NCBI GenBank assembly: GCA_017443165.1 | Contig: JAFSOW010000169.1 | Coordinates: forward strand, 1 to 11,638 | Direction: 5' to 3' | DNA: 11,638 nt | Origin: Acidaminococcaceae bacterium | Lineage (GTDB): Bacteria > Bacillota > Negativicutes > Acidaminococcales > Acidaminococcaceae | Part shown: piece by piece, positions 1-11,638 of the stretch | Layout: each line of letters begins with the position of its first letter | How positions within the stretch are numbered: position 1 is the stretch's first letter | The notes under the pieces: model-generated | What the model saw: only the letters and a program-made list of their open reading frames with translations | Databases searched by the model: none | Told to the model about the DNA's origin: nothing | Position numbers and translations under genes: made by a program

Positions 1-1
1 G

Positions 2-886
2 AAACTGGGCGGCGAACCAAGCAAAAACAGTTCCGGCTATTCCCTCCTGCATCTGATGGTTGGTTCCGAGGGAACCCTGGGAATCATCACGGAAATCGGA
101 CTGAAGCTTATCCCCAAACCGAAATTCCAGGTCTCCCTGCTGGGCATGTTCGAGGATCTGGAAGCCTGCATCCGCTGCGTGCCTGCGGTCAAGGGCTCCG
201 GACTGGAACCCCAGTCTCTGGAATTTATGCCCCGCTCCGGTGTAGTGCGGGCAGAGAAATTCATGGAAAAGACGGTCTATCCTGCCAAGAGTGAAGGGAC
301 TGACGTGGGAGCTTATCTTCTCACCACCTTCGATTGCCGCCGGGAAGAAGAGATGGACGAGATCATGGAGGCAGCCGCTGAAGTTATGCTGGAAGGCGGC
401 GCGCTGGATGTGCTCGTGTTTGATAATCCCAATTCGATGAAAACGGCCTGGGATGTGCGCAGAGCCGTGCCGGAATCCATCCTCGAAACCTATGACAAGG
501 TGGAGGAATGTGACATCGTGGTTCCCACCAGCTACATCGCGGAGGTTGTGGACTATGCCCTGAGCCTGACGGAGGAAGTGGGCCTGGATATTCATACCTA
601 CGGACACGCCGGGGACGGCAACATCCATATCAAACTCTGCGCCAACGGCATGGAGGAACAGGAGTTCCGCGCCCGTTCCGATAAATTCCTCGACCTGATT
701 TATGCCCGGGGCAAGGGGATGAACGCCCTGATCTCCGGTGAACACGGCATCGGTGCCGTTTCCGTCCATCGCCTGGAAGACTATGCCGGTAAAGACGTGA
801 TGGATCTGATGCGGGGCATCAAGGCTGTATTCGATCCGAAAGGACTTTTGAATCCGGGCAAGGTCTGCACGTACGTGAAAGACTGA
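2..886 (+). CDS. FAD-binding oxidoreductase (GlcD / D-2-hydroxyacid dehydrogenase family), C-terminal part
   Basis: The reading frame is open from base 2, so the gene is cut by the left edge and about 294 C-terminal residues are visible. The first visible residues (GGEPSKNSSGY, then MVGSEGTLGIIT) are the end of the PCMH-type FAD-binding domain. The rest is the FAD-linked oxidase C-terminal domain. It shows the family signatures HTYGHAGDGNIH (about residue 199, metal/substrate-binding histidines), SGEHGIG (about residue 244) and the terminal FDPKGLLNPGK. Known members oxidise D-lactate, glycolate or 2-hydroxyglutarate and pass electrons to a flavoprotein or quinone partner; the exact substrate cannot be told from this half. 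An internal ATG at 56 is not the real start, because the domain continues upstream of it. A strong terminator follows 40 bases after the stop, so this is the last gene of its transcription unit. Confidence 0.93.
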   Translation, partial: KLGGEPSKNSSGYSLLHLMVGSEGTLGIITEIGLKLIPKPKFQVSLLGMFEDLEACIRCVPAVKGSGLEPQSLEFMPRSGVVRAEKFMEKTVYPAKSEGTDVGAYLLTTFDCRREEEMDEIMEAAAEVMLEGGALDVLVFDNPNSMKTAWDVRRAVPESILETYDKVEECDIVVPTSYIAEVVDYALSLTEEVGLDIHTYGHAGDGNIHIKLCANGMEEQEFRARSDKFLDLIYARGKGMNALISGEHGIGAVSVHRLEDYAGKDVMDLMRGIKAVFDPKGLLNPGKVCTYVKD

Positions 887-925
887 TCTGCCAGGTGCTT
901 GCAGCGACAATTTTATAATAAGTTC

Positions 926-962
926 AACAGCCGTGGAAGTAATTTTCCGCGGCTGTTTTGTT
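926..962 (+). terminator. Rho-independent terminator after the FAD oxidoreductase
   Basis: AACAGCCGTGGAA (926-938) pairs with TTCCGCGGCTGTT (945-957) with one G-T wobble around a six-base loop, followed by TTTTGTT. The same stem recurs at 5383-5412, and its left arm alone recurs at 3817-3829. Confidence 0.9.
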
Positions 963-1018
963 ATACGGAACAAGCAATGTAATGGTTGCTGCAAACCGGG
1001 GTTCATCATCACCGGCCG

Positions 1019-1047
1019 TTGTTTTCTTTTTGTGTTTCATTTATAAT
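1019..1047 (+). promoter_or_regulatory. Probable sigma-A promoter of the C69 peptidase operon
   Basis: TTGTTT (1019-1024), a 17-base spacer and a perfect TATAAT (1042-1047). The -35 is a weak match. It lies about 60 bases upstream of the chosen ATG at 1106 and directly after the terminator at 926-962, where a new transcript is expected. Confidence 0.5.
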
Positions 1048-1105
1048 ATATATGACGGATATTTGTTGTAACATTTTGATTTTGAAAGGCAGGGGATGGG
1101 GTATC

Positions 1106-2686
1106 ATGTTAAAAAAGATGATTGCAGCTATGGCATTGGTTTCGCTTATAACCGCAAGCGCCGAGGCATGCACCGTTATGGTGGTGACGAAGGGCGCGTC
1201 AGCGGACGGGAGCACGATGGTTTCGCACTCTAACGACGGCCGCGGCGCGGAAATGAATCTGATCTATGTGCCGGCGAAGGATCACCCGAAAGGCAGCAAA
1301 CGCCCTGTTTATCCTACGGCGGTGGCGCTCAATACCATGCCGGAGTACAACGCCTTTGACCAGCCGAACCTTGTCGCGCCGGAACGGAGCGAAGGGTACG
1401 ATTACCCCGGCAAACCACGCACGGTGCCCATCGGCTACATACCCGAAGTTGAACACACCTACGCCTATATGGACGCAGACTACGGCGTGGCCAATGAACA
1501 CGGCCTGATGTTTGGCGAATGTACGGACATGTCCGCGCATCTGCCGGAAGTTCCGTACAAAAAAGGCGGCGGCATATTCTACGCGGCCGAACTGAGCCGC
1601 GTCGCGCTGGAACGGTGCAAAACCGCCCGCGAGGCCATTCAGCTTATGGGCAGCCTGATCGATGAATACGGTCTCTGGGGCACCGCCGAGACGTTAGCCG
1701 TTGCCGACAAGGACGAGGCCTGGGTCTTTGAAATGCAGATGTCGCCCACAGGCAAAGGCGGCCTCTGGATCGCGGAAAAGATACCGGACGGAGACTTTTT
1801 CATAGAGGCGAACCAGCTCCGGATCCATGCGATCCGGGAAGGCGACCCGGGCCAGATTTTCAACCCGCGCCTGCCGGAAATGCTGAAGGAATTCGGCTGG
1901 GCGGCCTACGACGAGGAAGGCCGGCTGGACTGGATGAAATCCCTGCAGTCCAAAGAGTTCCATCACCCGTATTATTCCAAGCGGCGCGTATGGCGGGCCA
2001 TGAGCCTCGTCGCGCCGTCCAAGAACCTTCCGTCCCGGGTCGCGGACTGGGATTCGAAAACCTATCCGCTTTCCATCCGCCCCGACAGAAAACTGAACGT
2101 GGAAGATATCGCGCGCATCCACCGCGACTATTACCAGGGGACCAAATTTGACAAGTCGAAGAGCCCCCTGGCCGGTCTGTACGGATCGCCGTACCATTAT
2201 GTAGTAGAAATGGGCGAGCGTTCCATCCTGTCTTCCAAGACGAGTTACAGCCACATCTCCCAGGCCGGCGGCATGCTTCCGTCCCCGGTCGTATGGATGT
2301 CGATGGATACGCCTTTTGAAAATCCTTTCATTCCGTTTGCCGTATCGAAGGTGCCCGAAGAGTACCGGGCCCTGCGCGACACCTACGACCCGTCGAAGAT
2401 GTTCTGGGCCTCCAACCAGGTCATGGCGCTGACGCAAGGCTATTTTAACATTATGGCTCCCACCGTGAAGGAAGCGGTGGAACAGGCGGAGAAAAACTCC
2501 ATGCAGCTTGTGGGTTCGTCCTCCGGCCTGACGAAGGAACAGTTTGCCGATGCGCTGCGCAAGAACTCCCTCAAAATCTTTGAGGACTGGAAACAGCTTT
2601 CCACTAAACTGTTAATGAAATTTAAGAGCGACGTGGGCATCGAGTACGAAAAGCAGCCCAAACCGGACACGCCGAAGAATTATTGA
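1106..2686 (+). CDS. Secreted C69-family dipeptidase (PepD-like Ntn hydrolase)
   Basis: The protein has 526 residues. I chose ATG 1106 because AGGGGATGGGG precedes it and a clean signal peptide begins there (LKK, hydrophobic core, SAEA); the frame runs up to 986 but that part looks like leader DNA. Predicted signal peptidase I cleavage after A21 leaves Cys22 as the first mature residue, followed by TVMVVTKGASADGS and SHSNDGRG. This is the typical C69 start, where the N-terminal cysteine is the Ntn-hydrolase nucleophile. Other family-like segments are YGVANEHGLMFGECT and WIFE-like WVFEMQM. Family members cleave dipeptides or act on short peptides; here the enzyme would act outside the cytoplasmic membrane. 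The stop is only 30 bases before a Nif11-like peptide gene with no terminator between, suggesting cotranscription. Function in this organism is inferred from family only. Confidence 0.9.
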   Translation: MLKKMIAAMALVSLITASAEACTVMVVTKGASADGSTMVSHSNDGRGAEMNLIYVPAKDHPKGSKRPVYPTAVALNTMPEYNAFDQPNLVAPERSEGYDYPGKPRTVPIGYIPEVEHTYAYMDADYGVANEHGLMFGECTDMSAHLPEVPYKKGGGIFYAAELSRVALERCKTAREAIQLMGSLIDEYGLWGTAETLAVADKDEAWVFEMQMSPTGKGGLWIAEKIPDGDFFIEANQLRIHAIREGDPGQIFNPRLPEMLKEFGWAAYDEEGRLDWMKSLQSKEFHHPYYSKRRVWRAMSLVAPSKNLPSRVADWDSKTYPLSIRPDRKLNVEDIARIHRDYYQGTKFDKSKSPLAGLYGSPYHYVVEMGERSILSSKTSYSHISQAGGMLPSPVVWMSMDTPFENPFIPFAVSKVPEEYRALRDTYDPSKMFWASNQVMALTQGYFNIMAPTVKEAVEQAEKNSMQLVGSSSGLTKEQFADALRKNSLKIFEDWKQLSTKLLMKFKSDVGIEYEKQPKPDTPKNY

Positions 2687-2716
2687 TGCAATAAAATTTT
2701 CAGGAGGGATTTTACC

Positions 2717-2956
2717 ATGCCGGTCAACAGAAACGAAATCACAAAGGAAATGATTGCCAAAGCCCTGCAAAGCAAATCCGCAGAGGAATTGATAGCGCTG
2801 GCGAAGAGCGAGGGATTTGAGCTCACGAAGGACGAGGCTGAGGCGTACATGGCGGAGCTTGCTGATGTGGAACTGGACGGCAGGGAAATGAAGAATGTGG
2901 CCGGCGGCACATGCTATATGGCGGACGAACCCTGCAAAAAGTACAGCAACAGCTAA
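2717..2956 (+). CDS. Nif11/NHLP-type double-glycine leader peptide precursor A (putative RiPP or bacteriocin precursor)
   Basis: The product has 79 residues, with a strong ribosome site AGGAGGG (2702-2708). Residues 1-64 form an acidic helical leader with the Nif11-derived pattern SAEELIALAK (21-30), GFELTKDEAEAY (33-44) and ELDG...VAGG, ending in GG at 63-64. Residues 65-79 are the candidate core, TCYMADEPCKKYSNS: 15 residues with two cysteines (66 and 73). In this family the leader is recognised by modifying enzymes and/or cut after GG by the C39 peptidase of an ABC exporter. No such enzyme is in the window. The gene sits 30 bases after the secreted C69 peptidase and 13 bases before the nucleotidyltransferase. 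Its leader is 44/64 identical to that of the precursor at 5103-5348. Family assignment is good; whether the core is modified, disulphide-bonded or plain is unknown. Confidence 0.8.
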   Translation: MPVNRNEITKEMIAKALQSKSAEELIALAKSEGFELTKDEAEAYMAELADVELDGREMKNVAGGTCYMADEPCKKYSNS

Positions 2957-2969
2957 AGATTACATAGTT

Positions 2970-3794
2970 ATGATGGAGAACAGGGAATACAAATTTACGC
3001 GGGAGGACATCGTTACGTTGCTTTGCGAGGCAGCGTCGCAATATGCCAGACGGAACGGGCCTCCGCTGGACGTGTTGATTTACGGCGGCGCCGCGGTTAC
3101 TCTCCGGCATGAATTCCGGACGGCGGCCCACGACATCGACTTTGCGCTCCTGGAGCCGTCACCCCTGTTTGAGGACTGTGTGGAAGACGTTGGAAAAAGG
3201 TACGGGCTGCTTCCCTTTTGGATGCACAGGCTGGAGCGATTCACGTCTGCCCCGCGCTTTCGTGAAAATTTTTACCGTCATGCCGATGTGCTCCACCTGA
3301 ATGCAGAGTCCGGCAATCTTTCTGTTTTGGTGCAGGACTCTGACTGGCAGCTTGCCAACAAGCTCTGCTGGTTTCGTCGTTACAGGAAAAATGACGGCCG
3401 GGACATTGCAGGCATCCTGCAGGAACGGGACGGTGATGCAGCCAAACAGATTTCCCAAAGTGTGCGGGATGTATTTGGTGAAGAGGCAACCTTAAATTCC
3501 GATGGGACGATGCTGTCGGATGCCCTGGAACAGGGTATGAACCCTGGCGAACTGGCCGCCCGGCTTGACGGGCGCGCCCTGTATTATGAAAAGGTCTATC
3601 GCTGGCTGTTTCCCTTATTGCGCCGGAAAGATGATCTGGCCGCCCGGAAAATTTGTTGGGCGGAAAGTCTGTTCTGGAGGACGGAGGGGGACGTCCAAAC
3701 CACGCTGGCGCGGTACGGGATCCATCTTTCCCCTGTCATCGTGAACCATATCGCCCGTGTGATGTTCAAGCCGGAGTTTTGGAGTTTGTTATAG
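2970..3794 (+). CDS. Nucleotidyltransferase-fold protein (DUF6036 / AbiEii-like)
   Basis: The product has 274 residues from ATG 2970; a second ATG follows immediately. There is no good Shine-Dalgarno, and the start lies 13 bases after the stop of precursor A, so translation may be coupled. Residues 35-60 read VLIYGGAAVTLRH...HDIDFAL: the GG at 39-40 and the D55-x-D57 pair match the Pol-beta-type nucleotidyltransferase active site. Around residues 126-150 the pattern WQLANKLCWFRRYRKNDGRDIAGIL matches the second conserved block of these proteins (a lysine, then spaced aspartates). Known relatives transfer nucleotides to RNA or proteins and some are toxins of abortive-infection systems. No antitoxin partner is evident here, unless the peptide gene plays that part, which I doubt. 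The downstream terminator is reduced to half a hairpin. Substrate unknown. Confidence 0.7.
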   Translation: MMENREYKFTREDIVTLLCEAASQYARRNGPPLDVLIYGGAAVTLRHEFRTAAHDIDFALLEPSPLFEDCVEDVGKRYGLLPFWMHRLERFTSAPRFRENFYRHADVLHLNAESGNLSVLVQDSDWQLANKLCWFRRYRKNDGRDIAGILQERDGDAAKQISQSVRDVFGEEATLNSDGTMLSDALEQGMNPGELAARLDGRALYYEKVYRWLFPLLRRKDDLAARKICWAESLFWRTEGDVQTTLARYGIHLSPVIVNHIARVMFKPEFWSLL

Positions 3795-3816
3795 TATGAC
3801 AAATTCATATTTTTTT

Positions 3817-3829
3817 CAACAGCCGTGGA
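3817..3829 (+). repeat. Orphan left arm of the 926/5383 terminator hairpin
   Basis: CAACAGCCGTGGA here is identical to the left arm of the terminators at 926 and 5383, but the matching right arm (TCCGCGGCTG) is absent. The next bases are GCAGGGAGGAATAATC, the ribosome binding site and start of 3846. It therefore cannot form the same terminator, and transcription from the upstream operon may read into the next gene. Confidence 0.75.
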
Positions 3830-3845
3830 GCAGGGAGGAATAATC

Positions 3846-4385
3846 ATGAGAAGTTGTATAAGGACTGCATGGCTTACCGTGGTTCTGATGTTTGCCATGG
3901 TGGCAACGGCGCTGGCCAATTATCCAGGTACATTGGATGGTGGGAATCTTGTGCTGGTGGATGGCGGCATGGGCGTGGGATACTATGCAGACAGGTCATC
4001 GGTGCAGGTGGAGCAGTATGCGCCCCCAAAGTATCAGCTGGCTATAAATTTGGTGGGCGTAGAGTTCTCGGATGAGTATTGGCGGAGCCATGAAACTTAT
4101 ATTGGCGGCCCGTACACTAAGGGTGAAAGTTTTACGCTTAAGTTCCGCTACAACTGGGACAGGAAGGTCATTTCCTACCAGCGGGGAAAGACCTGGCTGG
4201 ATTGGGATGTCAACCGCGATTACAGCCATGCAGAGGGTGATCCCATGATTCCCTTTGCTGCAGAAGTTGCCTTTGTGAGCGCCTACAACAAGAGATTCTT
4301 TAATGACAAGCTGGGCTACAGCCCGGTGCTGAAGAAGCGTCAGCGGGTCATTGACGAACAGCTTTACCGCAGGCTGGGGATTTGA
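3846..4385 (+). CDS. Exported protein of unknown function (small secreted family of Negativicutes type)
   Basis: The product has 179 residues from ATG 3846, chosen because GGGAGGAA (3833-3840) lies at ideal distance; an ATG at 3825 would overlap the hairpin remnant. Residues 1-24 are a signal peptide (basic start, hydrophobic core, ATALA) with cleavage before N25-YPG. The mature protein has glycine-rich turns (GTLDGGNLVLVDGGMGVGYYAD), then YAPPKYQLAIN, RYNWDRKV and FAAEVAFVSAYNKRFF, a mainly beta pattern rich in aromatic residues. It resembles from memory small secreted proteins of Selenomonas/Megasphaera relatives with a WYADRSS-like motif, but no function is known to me. There is no clear terminator between it and tag (104-base gap), so cotranscription with tag and precursor B is possible. 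Confidence 0.8.
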   Translation: MRSCIRTAWLTVVLMFAMVATALANYPGTLDGGNLVLVDGGMGVGYYADRSSVQVEQYAPPKYQLAINLVGVEFSDEYWRSHETYIGGPYTKGESFTLKFRYNWDRKVISYQRGKTWLDWDVNRDYSHAEGDPMIPFAAEVAFVSAYNKRFFNDKLGYSPVLKKRQRVIDEQLYRRLGI

Positions 4386-4489
4386 AGTGAAGTGGAAACG
4401 CCGGTGTAAGACGGTTGTTTATGAAGGATATCTGATTCAAACGGTAAGAACAACGTAGCGATAAGTTCTGATTTTGTCAAGGAACCGAT

Positions 4490-5062
4490 ATGGAAAAGAA
4501 ACGATGTAATTTCAGCTTCGGCGCAAAAGAATATCACGCATCGGATAAATTTGTTATATATCACGATACGCGCTGGTGCAAGCCCGAGCACAGAGACCGG
4601 GAACTTTTTGCGATGTTGATTCTGGAAGGAATGCAGGCCGGCGTGAGCTGGAACCTTATTCTGAATAAAGAGGACAACTTCAGAAAAGCGTTTGACGGAT
4701 TTGATCCGGAGATTGTAGCAAACTATGACGATGCAAAACTGGAAGAACTGATGCAGGATCCCGGCATCATCCGTAACCGGCAGAAACTGAAAGCGGCCGT
4801 CACCAATGCAAAAGCGTTTCTGCAGGTGCAGAAAGAGTTCGGCAGCTTCGATACCTATATTTGGGGTTTCACAGGCGGAAAGGTGATCGACCATCATCTG
4901 GCGGACGTGAAAGATATGCCTGCAAAGGACGCGCTTTCCGAGAAGGTCAGCAAGGACCTTAGGAAACGGGGGTTCAAGTTCGCAGGGCCTGTCATTATCT
5001 ATTCCTACCTGCAGGGAATCGGGGTCATAAATGACCACTGGGAATATTGCGACTACAGATAA
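4490..5062 (+). CDS. tag: DNA-3-methyladenine glycosylase I
   Basis: The product has 190 residues, the normal length for Tag, with AAGGAA (4479-4484) before the ATG. It removes 3-methyladenine from alkylated DNA as the first step of base excision repair in the cytoplasm. The zinc-snap ligands of Escherichia coli Tag are all present: C6, H25 (in YHDTRW), H183 and C187 (in NDHWEYC). The catalytic/base-binding segment LILEGMQAGVSW has E46 and W54, and the helix-hairpin-helix-like part ends in LRKRGFKFAGPVIIYSYLQGIGVINDH, closely matching the family. The gene is followed after 40 bases, with no terminator, by Nif11-like precursor B. That neighbour is not expected for a repair gene and probably reflects position rather than function. 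Upstream I see no convincing promoter. Confidence 0.95.
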   Translation: MEKKRCNFSFGAKEYHASDKFVIYHDTRWCKPEHRDRELFAMLILEGMQAGVSWNLILNKEDNFRKAFDGFDPEIVANYDDAKLEELMQDPGIIRNRQKLKAAVTNAKAFLQVQKEFGSFDTYIWGFTGGKVIDHHLADVKDMPAKDALSEKVSKDLRKRGFKFAGPVIIYSYLQGIGVINDHWEYCDYR

Positions 5063-5102
5063 CCGGGGCAAGAGAGAAAACAACAGAAAGGAAGGTAACA
5101 GT

Positions 5103-5348
5103 ATGCTCATCAACAAAAATGAACTCACAAAAGAAATGATTGAAAAAGCCATGCAGTGCAAAACCGCGGAAGAGCTGATTGCGCTGGCAAAGACCGGCGG
5201 CTATGAGCTGACAAAGGAAGAGGCTGAATCGTATCTGGCGGAACTGGCCGACATCGAGCTGGACGGGGAGACCCTGAAGAAGGTGTCCGGCGGCGTTAAA
5301 GTCTGCTACAATGTTTTAAATTGCTGGACCAAAGTCAGAAATAATTAA
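5103..5348 (+). CDS. Nif11/NHLP-type double-glycine leader peptide precursor B
   Basis: The product has 81 residues. The frame extends upstream into the tag stop region, but ATG 5103 is preceded by AAAGGAAGG (5087-5095) and aligns exactly with the start of precursor A. The leader (1-64) shares 44 of 64 residues with that of precursor A, including TAEELIALAK, ELTKEEAES and ELDG, and ends VSGG. The candidate core, residues 65-81, is VKVCYNVLNCWTKVRNN: 17 residues, basic, with cysteines at 68 and 74. Beyond a CY...C pattern it does not resemble the core of A, which is what a conserved-leader, variable-core family shows. It is last in its unit: a strong terminator begins 34 bases after the stop. 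No modification enzyme, C39 transporter or immunity gene is recognisable nearby, so processing would have to occur in trans. Confidence 0.8.
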   Translation: MLINKNELTKEMIEKAMQCKTAEELIALAKTGGYELTKEEAESYLAELADIELDGETLKKVSGGVKVCYNVLNCWTKVRNN

Positions 5349-5382
5349 TCGTATTCCGCATCGCCAAAATCATATTTAATGC

Positions 5383-5420
5383 AACAGCCGTGGAATTTTT
5401 TCCGCGGCTGTTTTGTTTTT
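5383..5420 (+). terminator. Rho-independent terminator after precursor B
   Basis: AACAGCCGTGGAA (5383-5395) pairs with TTCCGCGGCTGTT (5400-5412), followed by a T-rich tail TTTTGTTTTT. Both stem arms are identical to those at 926-957; only the loop differs. Confidence 0.92.
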
Positions 5421-5472
5421 GCTTTACAAACCCCGCAGGAAGTACGGCAAAGTTTCCCCGGGTCCGTACAAA

Positions 5473-5501
5473 TGGACACAAAAATATGGTAAAATTATTA
5501 T
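5473..5501 (+). promoter_or_regulatory. Sigma-A promoter for the KapD-like exonuclease
   Basis: TGGACA (5473-5478), a 17-base spacer and TATTAT (5496-5501), each one base from consensus. Transcription would start near 5508, so the parS site at 5533 lies in the 5' untranslated region, between promoter and gene. Confidence 0.6.
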
Positions 5502-5532
5502 GCGGATATCATGGACTCAGGTTGCATGATGA

Positions 5533-5548
5533 TGTTTCACGTGAAACA
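5533..5548. promoter_or_regulatory. parS: parS site (ParB/Spo0J binding), perfect 16-bp palindrome
   Basis: TGTTTCACGTGAAACA matches the bacterial chromosomal parS consensus (TGTTnCACGTGAAACA) at every position. In known genomes ParB loads here as a CTP-dependent clamp, spreads over neighbouring DNA and recruits SMC for origin segregation. Such sites cluster near oriC. A chance perfect match in 11.6 kb is very unlikely. ParA and ParB themselves are not in the window. Confidence 0.9.
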
Positions 5549-5575
5549 CATTGATTTACACAAAGAGGAAAAACA

Positions 5576-6157
5576 ATGAACTACTTTGTCATTGATTTTG
5601 AATTTACATTTTACAAAAGGCCGGTGGGAAGACCCCGTGGTTTTTTCAATGAAATCATCGAGGCCGGCGCTGTTTTGCTTGATTCCCGGGGAACCGAAAC
5701 CGGCAGGATGCATGCATTTGTCAAGCCGCATTTTTATCCGAAACAGGCGAAAGACGCCTATGATTTCTGCATGATTACGGAAAAAGAAATGAAGAAAGCC
5801 ATTGAATTCCCGGAAATGGTTAAACAGATTTCAGCTTTATTCGAACAGGGCAAATGCTATTTCGTTACCTGGGGTAACGAGGATTTCAGAGTCCTGGATA
5901 TTGGCTGCCAGCGTCACGGCATTGAGAATCCCGTGCGCAAGGAGGACTGCCTTGATCTGGCGCTGGCCTACAGACTCTGGAAAGAGGACAGTTTCACCAC
6001 AGGCCTTAAAGCAGCCGCGGAAGCGCTGGAGACCGATTCGGAAGGGCTTTGGCATACTGCGTATGACGATGCCTTCAACACCGGCAAGGTTCTCTTCAAA
6101 ATGCTGGAAAAGGGCTGGAGTCTGGAAAATTTCCTGACAGTTATAAATAATAATTAA
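5576..6157 (+). CDS. kapD: KapD-like 3'-5' exonuclease (DEDDh family)
   Basis: The product has 193 residues, with AGAGGAA (5564-5570) before the ATG. The RNase T/DnaQ-like fold carries a full DEDDh active site: D7 and E9 (IDFEF), D103 (TWGNED), H160 and D165 (HTAYDDAFNTG). The segments FFNEIIEAGAV, TWGNEDFRVLD and TTGLKAAAEAL match Bacillus KapD, named as an inhibitor of the KinA sporulation pathway, and related exonucleases. The substrate is probably a nucleic acid 3' end but is not fixed by the sequence. It has its own promoter, with parS in its leader. The next gene follows after 29 bases without a terminator. The symbol is by family likeness; a sporulation role is not implied here. Confidence 0.82.
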   Translation: MNYFVIDFEFTFYKRPVGRPRGFFNEIIEAGAVLLDSRGTETGRMHAFVKPHFYPKQAKDAYDFCMITEKEMKKAIEFPEMVKQISALFEQGKCYFVTWGNEDFRVLDIGCQRHGIENPVRKEDCLDLALAYRLWKEDSFTTGLKAAAEALETDSEGLWHTAYDDAFNTGKVLFKMLEKGWSLENFLTVINNN

Positions 6158-7803: not shown

Positions 7804-10191
7804 TCAGAACGTCCAGCAGGCCTGCAGGTTTGCCGTAACGCCGCGCTGTTTGCCAACCCAGCCCGTTACGCCGAAGTCGATCGCCATGGGGCCCTTGCCG
7901 GGTGTAACCTGCCAGCCCAGTTCGATCAGGCCGCTGCTGCCCTGAACACCCGGGCTCGGCGTGCCGTCGCCGCGGTATGTCGCCCGTGCATCCCCGCTGA
8001 ATTCATACTGGTATCCCAGTCCGCCGTAAATCTTATTTTTCTCGTTCAGCGCATGGATCAACCTGGCGCCTACGCGCAGACGGTGGCTGTTCACCGAATC
8101 GAAATGCATTTCCGCGTCGTCCTGACCGTTAATGTGGATCATGGCGCTGTCACTGCCCGTATGGCTGTAGAAATATTTCCCGTAAACGTCCACCGTGTTG
8201 TCGTTGCCGATGTCCACCAGCTTGCCCGCGCCCAGATGCGCCGCCCAGTAGGTCGCGCTGCTGTCATAGTCGGCGTGGGATACTTCCGAAAGCTGCGAAC
8301 TGTAATCGGATTTCACGCGGCCGGCACGCAGGCTGCCTTCATAGTAGAAGCCGTTGCTGTTGGTCTGTTTCGCAATCAGGCCCAGGCCCCAGTAGCTGGC
8401 ATTGCCGTCCGCCTTAAGGCCGTTGTCCTGATAGCTGTCGTAATCGCCGTGGCCGTATTCCACAATTGGCCCGAATAATAACTTGCCCTTGCTGTTTTCC
8501 AGTTCCCTGGCAAAGCCCATGTTCAGGCCGATGCCTTTGATGTCCACGTGGGACCCGCTCATGGCCCGCAGCTTGGAGAGGCCTACCGCAGCGAAGCTGT
8601 TGAAACCGCCGCCCGCTTCTTTGTCTCCGGCCGCCACCTGCGCATTGAGCATGCCCTGGCCGGCCAGCAGGTCGGAACCTGCGTTAATCATGGTCGCCAC
8701 TGCCATGCGGGTTTCAACCGGTGACTTCAGCCGGTCGGAAGAGCCGGATTTGGGCTCCGGCTTGGGCTCTGGTGTCGGAGTCGGAGTGGGCTCGGGTTTG
8801 GGTTCCGGATCAGGCGTTACTTCTTCAACATTCTCAACCGTAGTGATGATAGTAGTATCATCTTTCTTGCTGATGCTCAGTTCATATTTTTTATCGGTTG
8901 CCAGGTTGTTCGGTGCAAGGAAGGAAGCCTCGGCCAGTTTGGAACTATCAACCGTCTGCAGCTCATCGTCCGTGATCAGGCCGTTGCTGTTAACGAGCAG
9001 GTTGACCGTATCGCCTTTTTGCAGGTTCACGCCGCTTAACGCCGCCACCCCGAAGGTCACGCCTTTTACATCGGTCTGACTGCCAGTGCTCACCGTCAAC
9101 ATGGTATCGTCTTTGGCAATATCTTTCGGCAGGTAGAAGTTCATATTCTGGAACCCGCTTACACCTCCCGTCGTCACGTTTTTCGCCGCAACATTCAACG
9201 TGTTGCCGGCAACCGTACCGGTTGTTTGTTTTATACCCCCTACCAGACTCCTAACTGTTACCGGGGACAAAATGTTGATAGTGTTATTTTGCGCGCTGGT
9301 ATACGCATTGCCGGCACAGATTATAGCGGTTGAAAGATCCGGAGACCCGCTGATCGTTATTGTGTTGCCGTCGGCAGTGCTGGGAGTACCATCCGCATAA
9401 TAGACATCGCCGTTGCTGTAACCGCCGTAAATTTGACCCTTAACAGCAGCGTTGCCGCTGATAGTTACTATATTATTGTTGGCACTATCACGTGAATTGC
9501 CACCAATCACTTGTTGGATAGTGCCGCCGCTGACAGTTACCGTATTGCCGTCGGCAGCCTTCCCGGAATCACCGCCATATACACCATACATTTTGCCGCC
9601 GCTGACGGTTACCGAGTTGCCGGTTGCGCTGCCTAAATATGTGTATCCGCCATAAACCGGTTCAAGATTTTCCCCGGCGGCGCTGACAGTTACCTTGTTG
9701 CCGGTTGCGTTGCCACTATATGTGTATCCGCCATAAACTTGTATAAAATCTCCACCGTTCATATTTACTGTGTTACCGGTTGCGTCGCCGCGTGATTCGT
9801 AAACAACACCACCATATAACGTTGTTCCCTTGGTTAAGCCACTGACATTAACGGTCTTTCCTTCAATACCAGCAGTAGTATCAGAATAACCGCCTGCATA
9901 AACTTGATAGGCCGCGCCGCCTTCTTCGCCGGGAGTCTGGGCAAAATTCAGATTCAGGGTCGTTACAGAAGAATCTGATGGAACATTTGCACCGTAACAA
10001 TTAATTAAGGTTCCTGTACCTTCTGTGGTAAACGTAAAATTCCCCTGATAGAAACTTACCCCCGTAACCGTCAACTCTGCCGCGTCTGCCACCGCCGGCA
10101 TAAAGAACGCCGTGCTTCCCACCGAGGTCAATAAAGCCGCAAGAACCACCTTTGCCAGCCGTTTCCGTATTTTATGCCTGTACCTCATCAT
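7804..10191 (-). CDS. Autotransporter with beta-helix repeat passenger and C-terminal outer-membrane barrel
   Basis: The product has 795 residues. The start is fixed by GAGGAGGT on the minus strand (AGGAGG at 10204-10199); the next codon is also ATG. A long basic signal peptide (RYRHKIRKRLAKVV..., ending PAVADA at about 37) leads to Sec export. Residues 100-310 are imperfect repeats of about 24-27 residues with the pattern GN-x-VTVSGG...VYGGY, as in parallel beta-helix passengers. Residues 457-483 form a Pro/Glu/Lys/Thr-rich linker (PEPKPEPTPTPTPEP). The last 270-290 residues are the autotransporter beta-barrel, with alternating strands and aromatic girdles, ending QACWTF with the usual terminal F. 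The passenger would sit on the surface, as an adhesin or similar, but no ligand is suggested. It is a lone gene with its own promoter region and terminator. Confidence 0.93.
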   Translation of the reverse strand: MMRYRHKIRKRLAKVVLAALLTSVGSTAFFMPAVADAAELTVTGVSFYQGNFTFTTEGTGTLINCYGANVPSDSSVTTLNLNFAQTPGEEGGAAYQVYAGGYSDTTAGIEGKTVNVSGLTKGTTLYGGVVYESRGDATGNTVNMNGGDFIQVYGGYTYSGNATGNKVTVSAAGENLEPVYGGYTYLGSATGNSVTVSGGKMYGVYGGDSGKAADGNTVTVSGGTIQQVIGGNSRDSANNNIVTISGNAAVKGQIYGGYSNGDVYYADGTPSTADGNTITISGSPDLSTAIICAGNAYTSAQNNTINILSPVTVRSLVGGIKQTTGTVAGNTLNVAAKNVTTGGVSGFQNMNFYLPKDIAKDDTMLTVSTGSQTDVKGVTFGVAALSGVNLQKGDTVNLLVNSNGLITDDELQTVDSSKLAEASFLAPNNLATDKKYELSISKKDDTTIITTVENVEEVTPDPEPKPEPTPTPTPEPKPEPKSGSSDRLKSPVETRMAVATMINAGSDLLAGQGMLNAQVAAGDKEAGGGFNSFAAVGLSKLRAMSGSHVDIKGIGLNMGFARELENSKGKLLFGPIVEYGHGDYDSYQDNGLKADGNASYWGLGLIAKQTNSNGFYYEGSLRAGRVKSDYSSQLSEVSHADYDSSATYWAAHLGAGKLVDIGNDNTVDVYGKYFYSHTGSDSAMIHINGQDDAEMHFDSVNSHRLRVGARLIHALNEKNKIYGGLGYQYEFSGDARATYRGDGTPSPGVQGSSGLIELGWQVTPGKGPMAIDFGVTGWVGKQRGVTANLQACWTF
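9200..9900 (-). repeat. Degenerate tandem repeats encoding the autotransporter beta-helix
   Basis: Units of roughly 66-81 bp recur, each with the + strand phrase CGCTGACaGTTACC...GTTGCCG. The closest pair is 9600-9657 and 9681-9738: 51 of 58 bases identical at an 81-bp offset, a sign of recent duplication or conversion. These are coding repeats, not CRISPR. Confidence 0.8.
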
Positions 10192-10987: not shown

Positions 10988-11638
10988 ATGGAAAATGATT
11001 CAGAATTATTATCGTTAGATGCTAATGATATCAAACGCCGGATATTCACTATACGGGGAAAGCAGGTGATGCTGGACAGTGATTTGGCGGAGCTCTATCA
11101 AGTTGAAACTAAGAATTTGAATAAAGCCTCCAATCGGAATGTTGAAAGATTTCCGGAAGACTTTAGATTTAAGTTAACAAAAGAGGAGTTTGAGAACTTG
11201 AGGTTCCAAACTGGAACCTCAAGTGAAAGTTACGGTGGACGTAGATACATGCCATATGTTTATACCGAACAGGGTATATCAATGTTAGCCAGTGTGTTAA
11301 GAAGTAAAATTGCAATTCAGGTGAGCATTAATATTATGCGGACTTTTATTGAAATGCGCCACTTCATAGCCAACAATGCCGCATTGTTTGAGCGGATCAG
11401 CAAAGTGGAACTGAAGCAACTGGAAGCAGACAAAAAGTTTGACCGGCTTTTTGAGTATGTAAACACGCATGCGGAAACAAATCAGAAACTCTTTTTTGAC
11501 GGACAGATATATGATGCGTTCAGCCTGCTTATAGAGTTGATACAGAAAGCAGATCAGGAAATTATCCTGGTAGACGGATACGTGGATGTGAGCACGCTGA
11601 ACGTATTAGCGAAGAAAAAGTCCGGTGTGTCCGTGACA
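10988..11638 (+). CDS. ORF6N-domain protein, C-terminally truncated by the window
   Basis: 217 residues are visible with no stop before the right edge. GGGAGG (10976-10981) precedes the ATG. Residues 15-127 form an ORF6N (KilA-N-related) domain, with RRIFTIRGKQVMLDSDLAELYQV, NRNVERFPEDFRFKLTKEEF, and YMPYVYTEQGISMLASVLRSK-AI-VSI-IMRTFIEMR. This DNA-binding domain is typical of phage and mobile-element proteins but is also chromosomal. A short helical linker follows. From about residue 168, FFDGQIYDAFSLLIELIQKADQEIILVDGYVD resembles the start of the phospholipase-D-like domain often found at the C-terminus of this group. No phage structural or integration genes are seen nearby. It is probably a complete chromosomal gene of about 280-300 residues; role unknown. 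Confidence 0.88.
   Translation, partial: MENDSELLSLDANDIKRRIFTIRGKQVMLDSDLAELYQVETKNLNKASNRNVERFPEDFRFKLTKEEFENLRFQTGTSSESYGGRRYMPYVYTEQGISMLASVLRSKIAIQVSINIMRTFIEMRHFIANNAALFERISKVELKQLEADKKFDRLFEYVNTHAETNQKLFFDGQIYDAFSLLIELIQKADQEIILVDGYVDVSTLNVLAKKKSGVSVT

Follow-up and report, generated by a model that had tools for sequence, protein, structure and literature searches.

What purpose is served by two short peptide genes on a contig with no match to a SPASM or LanC maturation enzyme or to a C39 transporter? The window, i.e. the whole stretch of DNA analysed, is the entire contig C130 (11,638 bases) of an assembly from the genus Succiniclasticum (1.49 Mb, 255 contigs, 73.36% complete; genome G000 below). 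Judged by sequence, the two genes, A and B, are Nif11-like precursors of ribosomally synthesised and post-translationally modified peptides (RiPPs):

2717..2956, plus strand: precursor A; 64-residue Nif11-like leader (2717-2908) ending in GG, core TCYMADEPCKKYSNS (2909-2953)
5103..5348, plus strand: precursor B; 64-residue Nif11-like leader (5103-5294) ending in GG, core VKVCYNVLNCWTKVRNN (5295-5345)

The best explanation, to which we assign a probability of about 0.8, is that A and B belong to a genome-wide library of radical S-adenosylmethionine (SAM) RiPP precursors, a counterpart of the prochlorosin arrangement. A first-pass annotation, made from the letters of the window alone, had placed both reading frames correctly, and its description of them holds: the leaders are of equal length with the same GG end and share 44 of 64 residues, and each core has two cysteines with 6 (A) or 5 (B) residues between them and a tyrosine after the first.

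Precursor A belongs to TIGR03798 (33.6 bits, cut-off 32.3), and B lies just below the threshold (31.6) and is not a member. For PF07862 (cut-off 23.8) B is above with 25.4 bits and A just below with 23.6. Precursors elsewhere in the same genome score likewise on both sides of the TIGR03798 cut-off (contig C45, 38.2; contig C125, 33.9 and, for a second copy, 26.7), and the precursor on contig C18 of Succiniclasticum ruminis DSM 9236 reaches 29.8. This isolate (genome G044, about 40 contigs) is a close relative, and its contig NZ_FONL01000019.1 matches window positions 1-6140 with 96.3% identity. The protein of A is identical in the two genomes and its DNA shows no difference, which makes it uninformative on selection; the orthologue of B differs slightly and has the core AKVCYNVLNCWTKVRNN.

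The precursor library

A profile built from five precursors was used to search 59 genomes of the family. Matches were found in 11 of these, ten belonging to the same genus and one, a weak match (5.6e-5), to another. The window's own genome gave seven precursors, A and B included, and the "pair" of the first-pass annotation is therefore amended. Its idea of a conserved-leader family dispersed like prochlorosin precursors was borne out, both by these seven and by the other genomes of the genus with matches.

From fetched stretches of ten genomes we collected 143 precursor frames, of which 115, spread over nine genus genomes, were complete. The other 28 were truncated, start-less, broken or odd and were set aside; some of them have stops and some are incomplete merely through a contig end. 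Complete precursors numbered 27 in G052, 20 in S. ruminis, 13 in G046, 12 in G055, 11 in G048, 10 each in G045 and G056, 7 in G000, 5 in G050 and none in G054. The real total is probably larger, as a number of copies are situated at the end of a contig. The leader is 64 residues long in 104 of the 115 and ends in GG in all except one, which has GD. The cores comprise 101 distinct sequences in 69 families, 20 of them seen in at least two genomes.

A maturase gene, whole or as a fragment, was found within 3 kb of 14 of the 115 complete precursors and not of the other 101. Fragmented assemblies could hide neighbours elsewhere; in the isolate genome, just one of the 20 complete precursors shares its contig with a maturase. 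A 32-base block is found 25-29 bases upstream of 24 of the 115 precursors, at otherwise different sites (e.g. CCTGTCTTGTATATATAATAAAAGGCATTTAA), A and B being without it. In the 1.1 Mb of fetched sequence, where overlaps count double, there are 24 further matches, mostly weaker and one near the best. The block is a candidate promoter or duplication relic, and one promoter common to all precursors was rejected, as only 24 have it.

Several arrangements at precursor loci were recorded. Two near-identical precursors of S. ruminis (G044:C26:50-310 and G044:C12:8-268) lie at contig ends, with 97.7% identity over 266 bases. An IMG/VR record of that strain has the C26 copy at its edge, and a recombinase-like open reading frame, by eye, is found at 6915-8546 of contig C26. 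Carriage by phages was rejected: one of 108 IMG/VR pattern matches encodes a relative, and this record is identical to S. ruminis contig C26 over 6,261 bases. A plasmid search with B as the sole query gave no match. At G055:C107:5015-5737 (L141) the precursor core continues into a domain resembling Hint/intein domains (29.2 bits for Hint against a cut-off of 29.7). Furthermore, an extracytoplasmic function (ECF) sigma factor followed by about 35 residues in frame with a precursor was seen at G000:C125 (L006:867-1850, minus strand), on G044:C6 and at L215:3271-4111, i.e. in Succiniclasticum and in a Spirochaetia assembly; it is a candidate regulator.

Core sequences

The motif Cys-[Tyr/Trp] is present in 70 of the 101 distinct cores, compared with a mean of 19.9 and a maximum of 34 when each core was shuffled 2000 times. 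Taking one representative per family, it is present in 42 of 69 (shuffled 13.3, maximum 25), and both A and B carry it. The first cysteine is most commonly core residue 2 (51 cores). Conservation of the GG and of the cysteine pattern among homologues had been proposed as a check; the GG stands in 114 of 115 precursors and at least one cysteine in 109, whereas the number of cysteines ranges from 0 to 5 and exactly two are found in only 42.

A fixed acceptor residue following the cysteine was also tried and is suggestive at most. Asp or Asn two to three residues after the aromatic residue, a pattern picked after looking at the cores, occurs in 38 of 69 distinct cores, one 177-residue core being left out, against 23.6 in shuffles (maximum 37), and by family in 24 of 41 against 12.8 (maximum 24).

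Among paralogues within a genome mean leader identity is 0.63-0.81 and core identity 0.15-0.20. Between genomes, the pooled omega of orthologues is 0.15 for leaders and 0.21 for cores (90 pairs, which are not independent; the values are rough for very short cores, and two families have a core omega of 0.7-0.9). The 18-residue core IFECYMRNDCMYAFDDWK is identical in four genomes, with silent changes in its DNA. Thus the "fast-changing core" of the first-pass annotation describes the paralogues but not, on the whole, the orthologues. As cores differ among paralogues and yet are conserved among orthologues, each one seems to be a product that is retained.

Maturation and export genes

Genome-wide searches for C39, SPASM and LanC placed none of them on contig C130, in agreement with the annotated lack of nearby machinery. 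SPASM matches in the genome are on contigs C103, C45 and C58. The one on C45 is a radical SAM/SPASM maturase gene adjoining another precursor, which fits the earlier suggestion of machinery encoded elsewhere that would act on A and B in trans. On C103 (L007) a SCIFF-like peptide gene with its maturase, by eye, forms a separate radical SAM system.

The maturase belongs to the broad class of radical SAM/SPASM RiPP maturases (PF04055 70.3 bits, cut-off 29.5; TIGR04085 55.8, cut-off 27). It is far below the NCBIfam equivalog cut-offs for PapB (104.6 of 340) and SCIFF (76.5 of 425), and it is not a member of TIGR04064 (75.1 bits, cut-off 518.7). Of the 244 maturase homologues among 8000 scored candidates, 120 were used, 42 of these in the alignment. 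In the alignment of 48 sequences, cysteines 105, 109 and 112 (the CX3CX2C of the radical SAM domain) are invariant, as are 370, 388, 429, 432, 438, 442 and 458. The closest solved sequence is 5wgg (9.7e-22), which we take to be CteB, aligning along model residues 4-476; structure alignment with 5wgg and 5why gave 21-23% identity. Leader types could not be paired cleanly with maturase clades. A DUF7005 protein recurs beside maturases (L216:4476-5342, L076:7770-8660), and one Spirochaetia copy of it starts with a precursor-like leader.

Gene presence was searched for in 14 genus genomes. In the 12 that are at least 88% complete, the maturase gene and the C39 gene were each found in seven of the eight genomes with precursors and in none of the four without. 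As for the two least complete, G000 has the maturase and no C39, and G045 has neither. The lanthionine and azole routes were rejected: neither LanC (PF05147, LANC_like) nor YcaO (PF02624) was found in any of the 14 genomes, and the same LanC search was positive in one of 14 control genomes.

S. ruminis has maturases on contigs C37 and C18. A central locus is on its contig C18, where the order is DUF7005 protein, second maturase, precursor, RiPP radical SAM C-methyltransferase, RND-type adaptor, HlyD-type adaptor, C39 ABC transporter, second ABC transporter and a 620-residue protein with a C-terminal SPASM match. TIGR03794, TIGR03796 and TIGR03797 are all above cut-off there, which identifies an NHLM export system. 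The C39 gene is present in seven of the 14 genus genomes (a partial match in G055), each with precursors. In the window's own genome, a contig that happens to be numbered C39 (4,045 bases) is collinear, at 95.5%, with the end of the C18 locus. It starts inside the second ABC gene and so carries the gene next after the C39 exporter in S. ruminis; the NHLM ABC2 piece scores 517.2 bits, under the cut-off. The lack of any C39 peptidase transporter from the genome had been named as evidence that would speak against the annotation. No such gene was found in the incomplete assembly; considering the other genomes and the piece of the exporter locus, we think that the organism itself does have it.

Precursors are not confined to the genus. 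Among the best 80 of 151 named relatives, loci with precursors come from assemblies of Selenomonadaceae, Schwartzia and Spirochaetia, many of which bear the names of ruminant samples. Several of the loci outside the genus have the maturase, at about 50-80% identity, with 90% over part of the sequence in one Selenomonadales record. The maturase tree places the Selenomonadaceae enzymes with the Succiniclasticum C18 type and gives three Spirochaetota enzymes a clade to themselves. In the Spirochaetia-named maturase cluster the longest contig measures 665,761 bases, which speaks against simple contamination. It is likely that exchange took place between phyla.

Alternatives, the site of A and B, and known systems

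We infer the action in trans, the bond, the cleavage and the biological role as follows. Each precursor would be made at its own site, A and B probably by read-through from the C69 dipeptidase and DNA glycosylase genes listed below. The common leader would be recognised in trans by at least one radical SAM/SPASM maturase encoded elsewhere, and the variable core modified by joining the cysteine of Cys-Tyr/Trp to a nearby residue, most likely through a thioether. For some cores, C-methylation by the TIGR03975 enzyme may be a further step. In the NHLM exporter, as in its family, the C39 peptidase would cut after GG and the core would be secreted, and selection would keep every core as a separate product.

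A number of observations weigh against this explanation. Six of the 115 cores have no cysteine, one of these being identical in two genomes, and 31 of the 101 distinct cores lack Cys-[Tyr/Trp]; a single cysteine chemistry cannot serve all cores. Asp or Asn as the acceptor residue is weakly supported, and B is without the pattern. The co-occurrence of maturase or C39 with precursors has a one-sided value of 0.010 that is uncorrected for kinship. G054 (93% complete) has one clear start-less precursor and a weak match and neither maturase nor C39, and G045 (75% complete) has 11 precursor frames and a match to neither gene. The C-methyltransferase (TIGR03975) is present in only four of the 14 genomes. 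The searches for RiPP enzymes covered the radical SAM, LanC and YcaO types. Finally, the window's own assembly (73% complete) gave no C39 match genome-wide, and the NHLM ABC2 gene in it is split over two reading frames, through a real break or an assembly error.

The alternatives concern in part the immediate surroundings of A and B, where the other features are:

926..957, plus strand: terminator-like hairpin, before the gene group
1106..2686, plus strand: peptidase family C69 dipeptidase gene, 30 bases before A; a host gene of the site
2970-3794, plus strand: nucleotidyltransferase-fold gene, 13 bases after A; DUF6036 match under the Pfam cut-off
3846..4385, plus strand: probably secreted protein, signal-like start by eye, no family match
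4490..5062, plus strand: DNA-3-methyladenine glycosylase gene (PF03352), 40 bases before B; a host gene of the site
5383..5412, plus strand: terminator-like hairpin similar to that at 926..957, after B

The gene at 2970-3794, absent from the first-pass annotation, is a precursor-associated satellite gene. Neighbour families were counted only at loci holding precursors, and this gene alone was compared with the rest of the genome. All four copies in the 14 genus genomes are within 300 bases of a precursor, in three different places (rough chance product 1e-6), and a relative is found in a Spirochaetia precursor cluster. The protein is not a member of DUF6036 (cut-off 23.6) and matches none of the defence-system models. 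Its modelled fold, mainly residues 1-184, resembles TM1012 and MenT-type enzymes; 21 of 36 relatives were taken into the alignment. A and this gene might therefore form a two-gene unit, i.e. a product plus self-protection or modification, with B separate. This is compatible with the library explanation, and we hold it possible though rather unlikely: only four of 14 genomes carry the gene, most precursors are without it, and in G048 it stands before, not after, the nearest precursor.

Another alternative is that the peptides are unmodified and of class II type, with the leader serving export and cleavage only and the cysteine pair forming a disulphide. GG leaders and a C39 exporter would suffice for this, the cysteine pair fits a disulphide and some cores have no cysteine at all. 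However, records from Succiniclasticum, Selenomonadaceae and Spirochaetia have maturase genes no more than 2.5 kb away from precursors, maturases co-occur with precursors, and a disulphide needs no Cys-aromatic motif; we find it improbable. The same low standing is given to a library largely in decay, in which the dispersed copies are duplication relics and only those adjoining a maturase work. The 28 set-aside frames (some cut merely by a contig end) and the start-less copy of G054, left without machinery, would fit decay, but orthologous cores are conserved (pooled omega and the unchanged IFECYMRNDCMYAFDDWK above) and A and B are intact in two genomes. Prochlorosin-like lanthipeptides, with cysteine bonded to dehydrated Ser/Thr by a LanM-type enzyme elsewhere, share the leader superfamily, the GG end and dispersed paralogues (PMC2887384 and PMC10783134), and are very improbable given PF05147 in none of 14 genus genomes (one of 14 controls) and radical SAM/SPASM genes beside the precursors instead.

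As regards the site itself, the hairpin at 5383..5412 perhaps closes a transcription unit, the six terminator-like hits of the region being not above the 5.6 of shuffled sequence. A scan of the 150 bases before A or B listed nothing promoter-like on the plus strand. The orthologous dipeptidase gene of G046 (95.0% DNA identity) has a hairpin, by eye, within about 20 bases of its end, and the 19 kb analysed there are without A; the site of A is thus occupied in one species and empty in another, through gain or loss. The protein of 3846..4385 recurs near precursors in G046, at 195 and 392 bases, in a search confined to precursor loci. Precursors have a C69 dipeptidase gene close by, upstream or downstream, in three places: G044:C35, which is the window site, G044:C33 and G052:C52. 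At precursor loci the commonest neighbour family, precursors apart, is headed by a fusion of an amino-acid permease with response-regulator, GGDEF and EAL domains (e.g. L096:6573-10985, G052:C23). The family comprises 26 distinct sequences, some of which may be the same gene cut differently. Farther along the window, a 795-residue protein (7804-10191, minus strand) resembles an autotransporter by eye: units like GNTVTVSGG are repeated in it, a linker is rich in proline and the C-terminal region is barrel-like. Pfam gave weak matches to the linker only. An ORF6N-domain gene at 10988-11638 is cut by the contig end, and S. ruminis has two similar copies (94.7% and 79.7%).

A wider joint reading, which we offer tentatively and would more readily doubt than accept, is that the prochlorosins have a radical SAM counterpart throughout the rumen. 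Its precursors, alike in their leaders, would form a library of mobile cassettes, each inserted on its own behind an ordinary gene. Some would have a promoter block in common, and some a satellite nucleotidyltransferase protecting the producer or modifying the product. One or two tolerant enzymes that form thioethers would mature all of them in trans, and the cassettes would be exchanged between Negativicutes and Spirochaetota. If the library explanation is true, 69 core families in one genus with a cultured and sequenced type strain would be a natural substrate set for probing enzyme tolerance, and an unsuspected secreted peptide repertoire of a rumen bacterium would be indicated. The literature search, with most subscription papers outside it, found no paper joining Succiniclasticum with radical SAM. 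Succiniclasticum with RiPP gave feeding trials only, by title, and none of the other papers listed, judged by title and abstract start, describes the system.

Among dispersed RiPP libraries that depend on a single tolerant enzyme, the prochlorosins are the best known. PMC10783134 describes them as a lanthipeptide system with a dispersed precursor library and modification in trans. Action in trans is the natural reading here as well, with 101 of 115 precursors not within 3 kb of a maturase. Prochlorosins and the synechococsins of picocyanobacteria are Nif11-leader lanthipeptides, whereas the enzymes here are of radical SAM/SPASM type and LANC_like is absent from all 14 genus genomes. The combinatorial N11P/NHLP clusters of Haft, Basu and Mitchell (2010, PMC2887384) share the TIGR03798 leader and the TIGR03794/03796/03797 exporter. 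They are described there with azole or lanthionine enzymes, where YcaO and LANC_like were found in none of the 14 genomes here, and a further difference is that for 101 of the 115 complete precursors here the search gave no maturase gene within 3 kb. The ranthipeptide maturases CteB and PapB have radical SAM and SPASM domains like the present maturase, at an identity to 5wgg/5why of only 21-23%. PapB accepts Cys-Xn-Asp with n from 0 to 6 (PMC9413430), which makes a tolerant enzyme of this type chemically plausible. TIGR04064, the nif11-like peptide radical SAM maturase, is by its name paired with Nif11-like leaders, and the present enzyme reaches 75.1 of the 518.7 bits. The leader family, the exporter and the idea of a dispersed library are thus already known (PMC2887384, PMC10783134). 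What sets the present system apart is its combination with radical SAM enzymes, its extent within a single rumen genus, the cores with their Cys-aromatic motif and the nucleotidyltransferase as a satellite gene.

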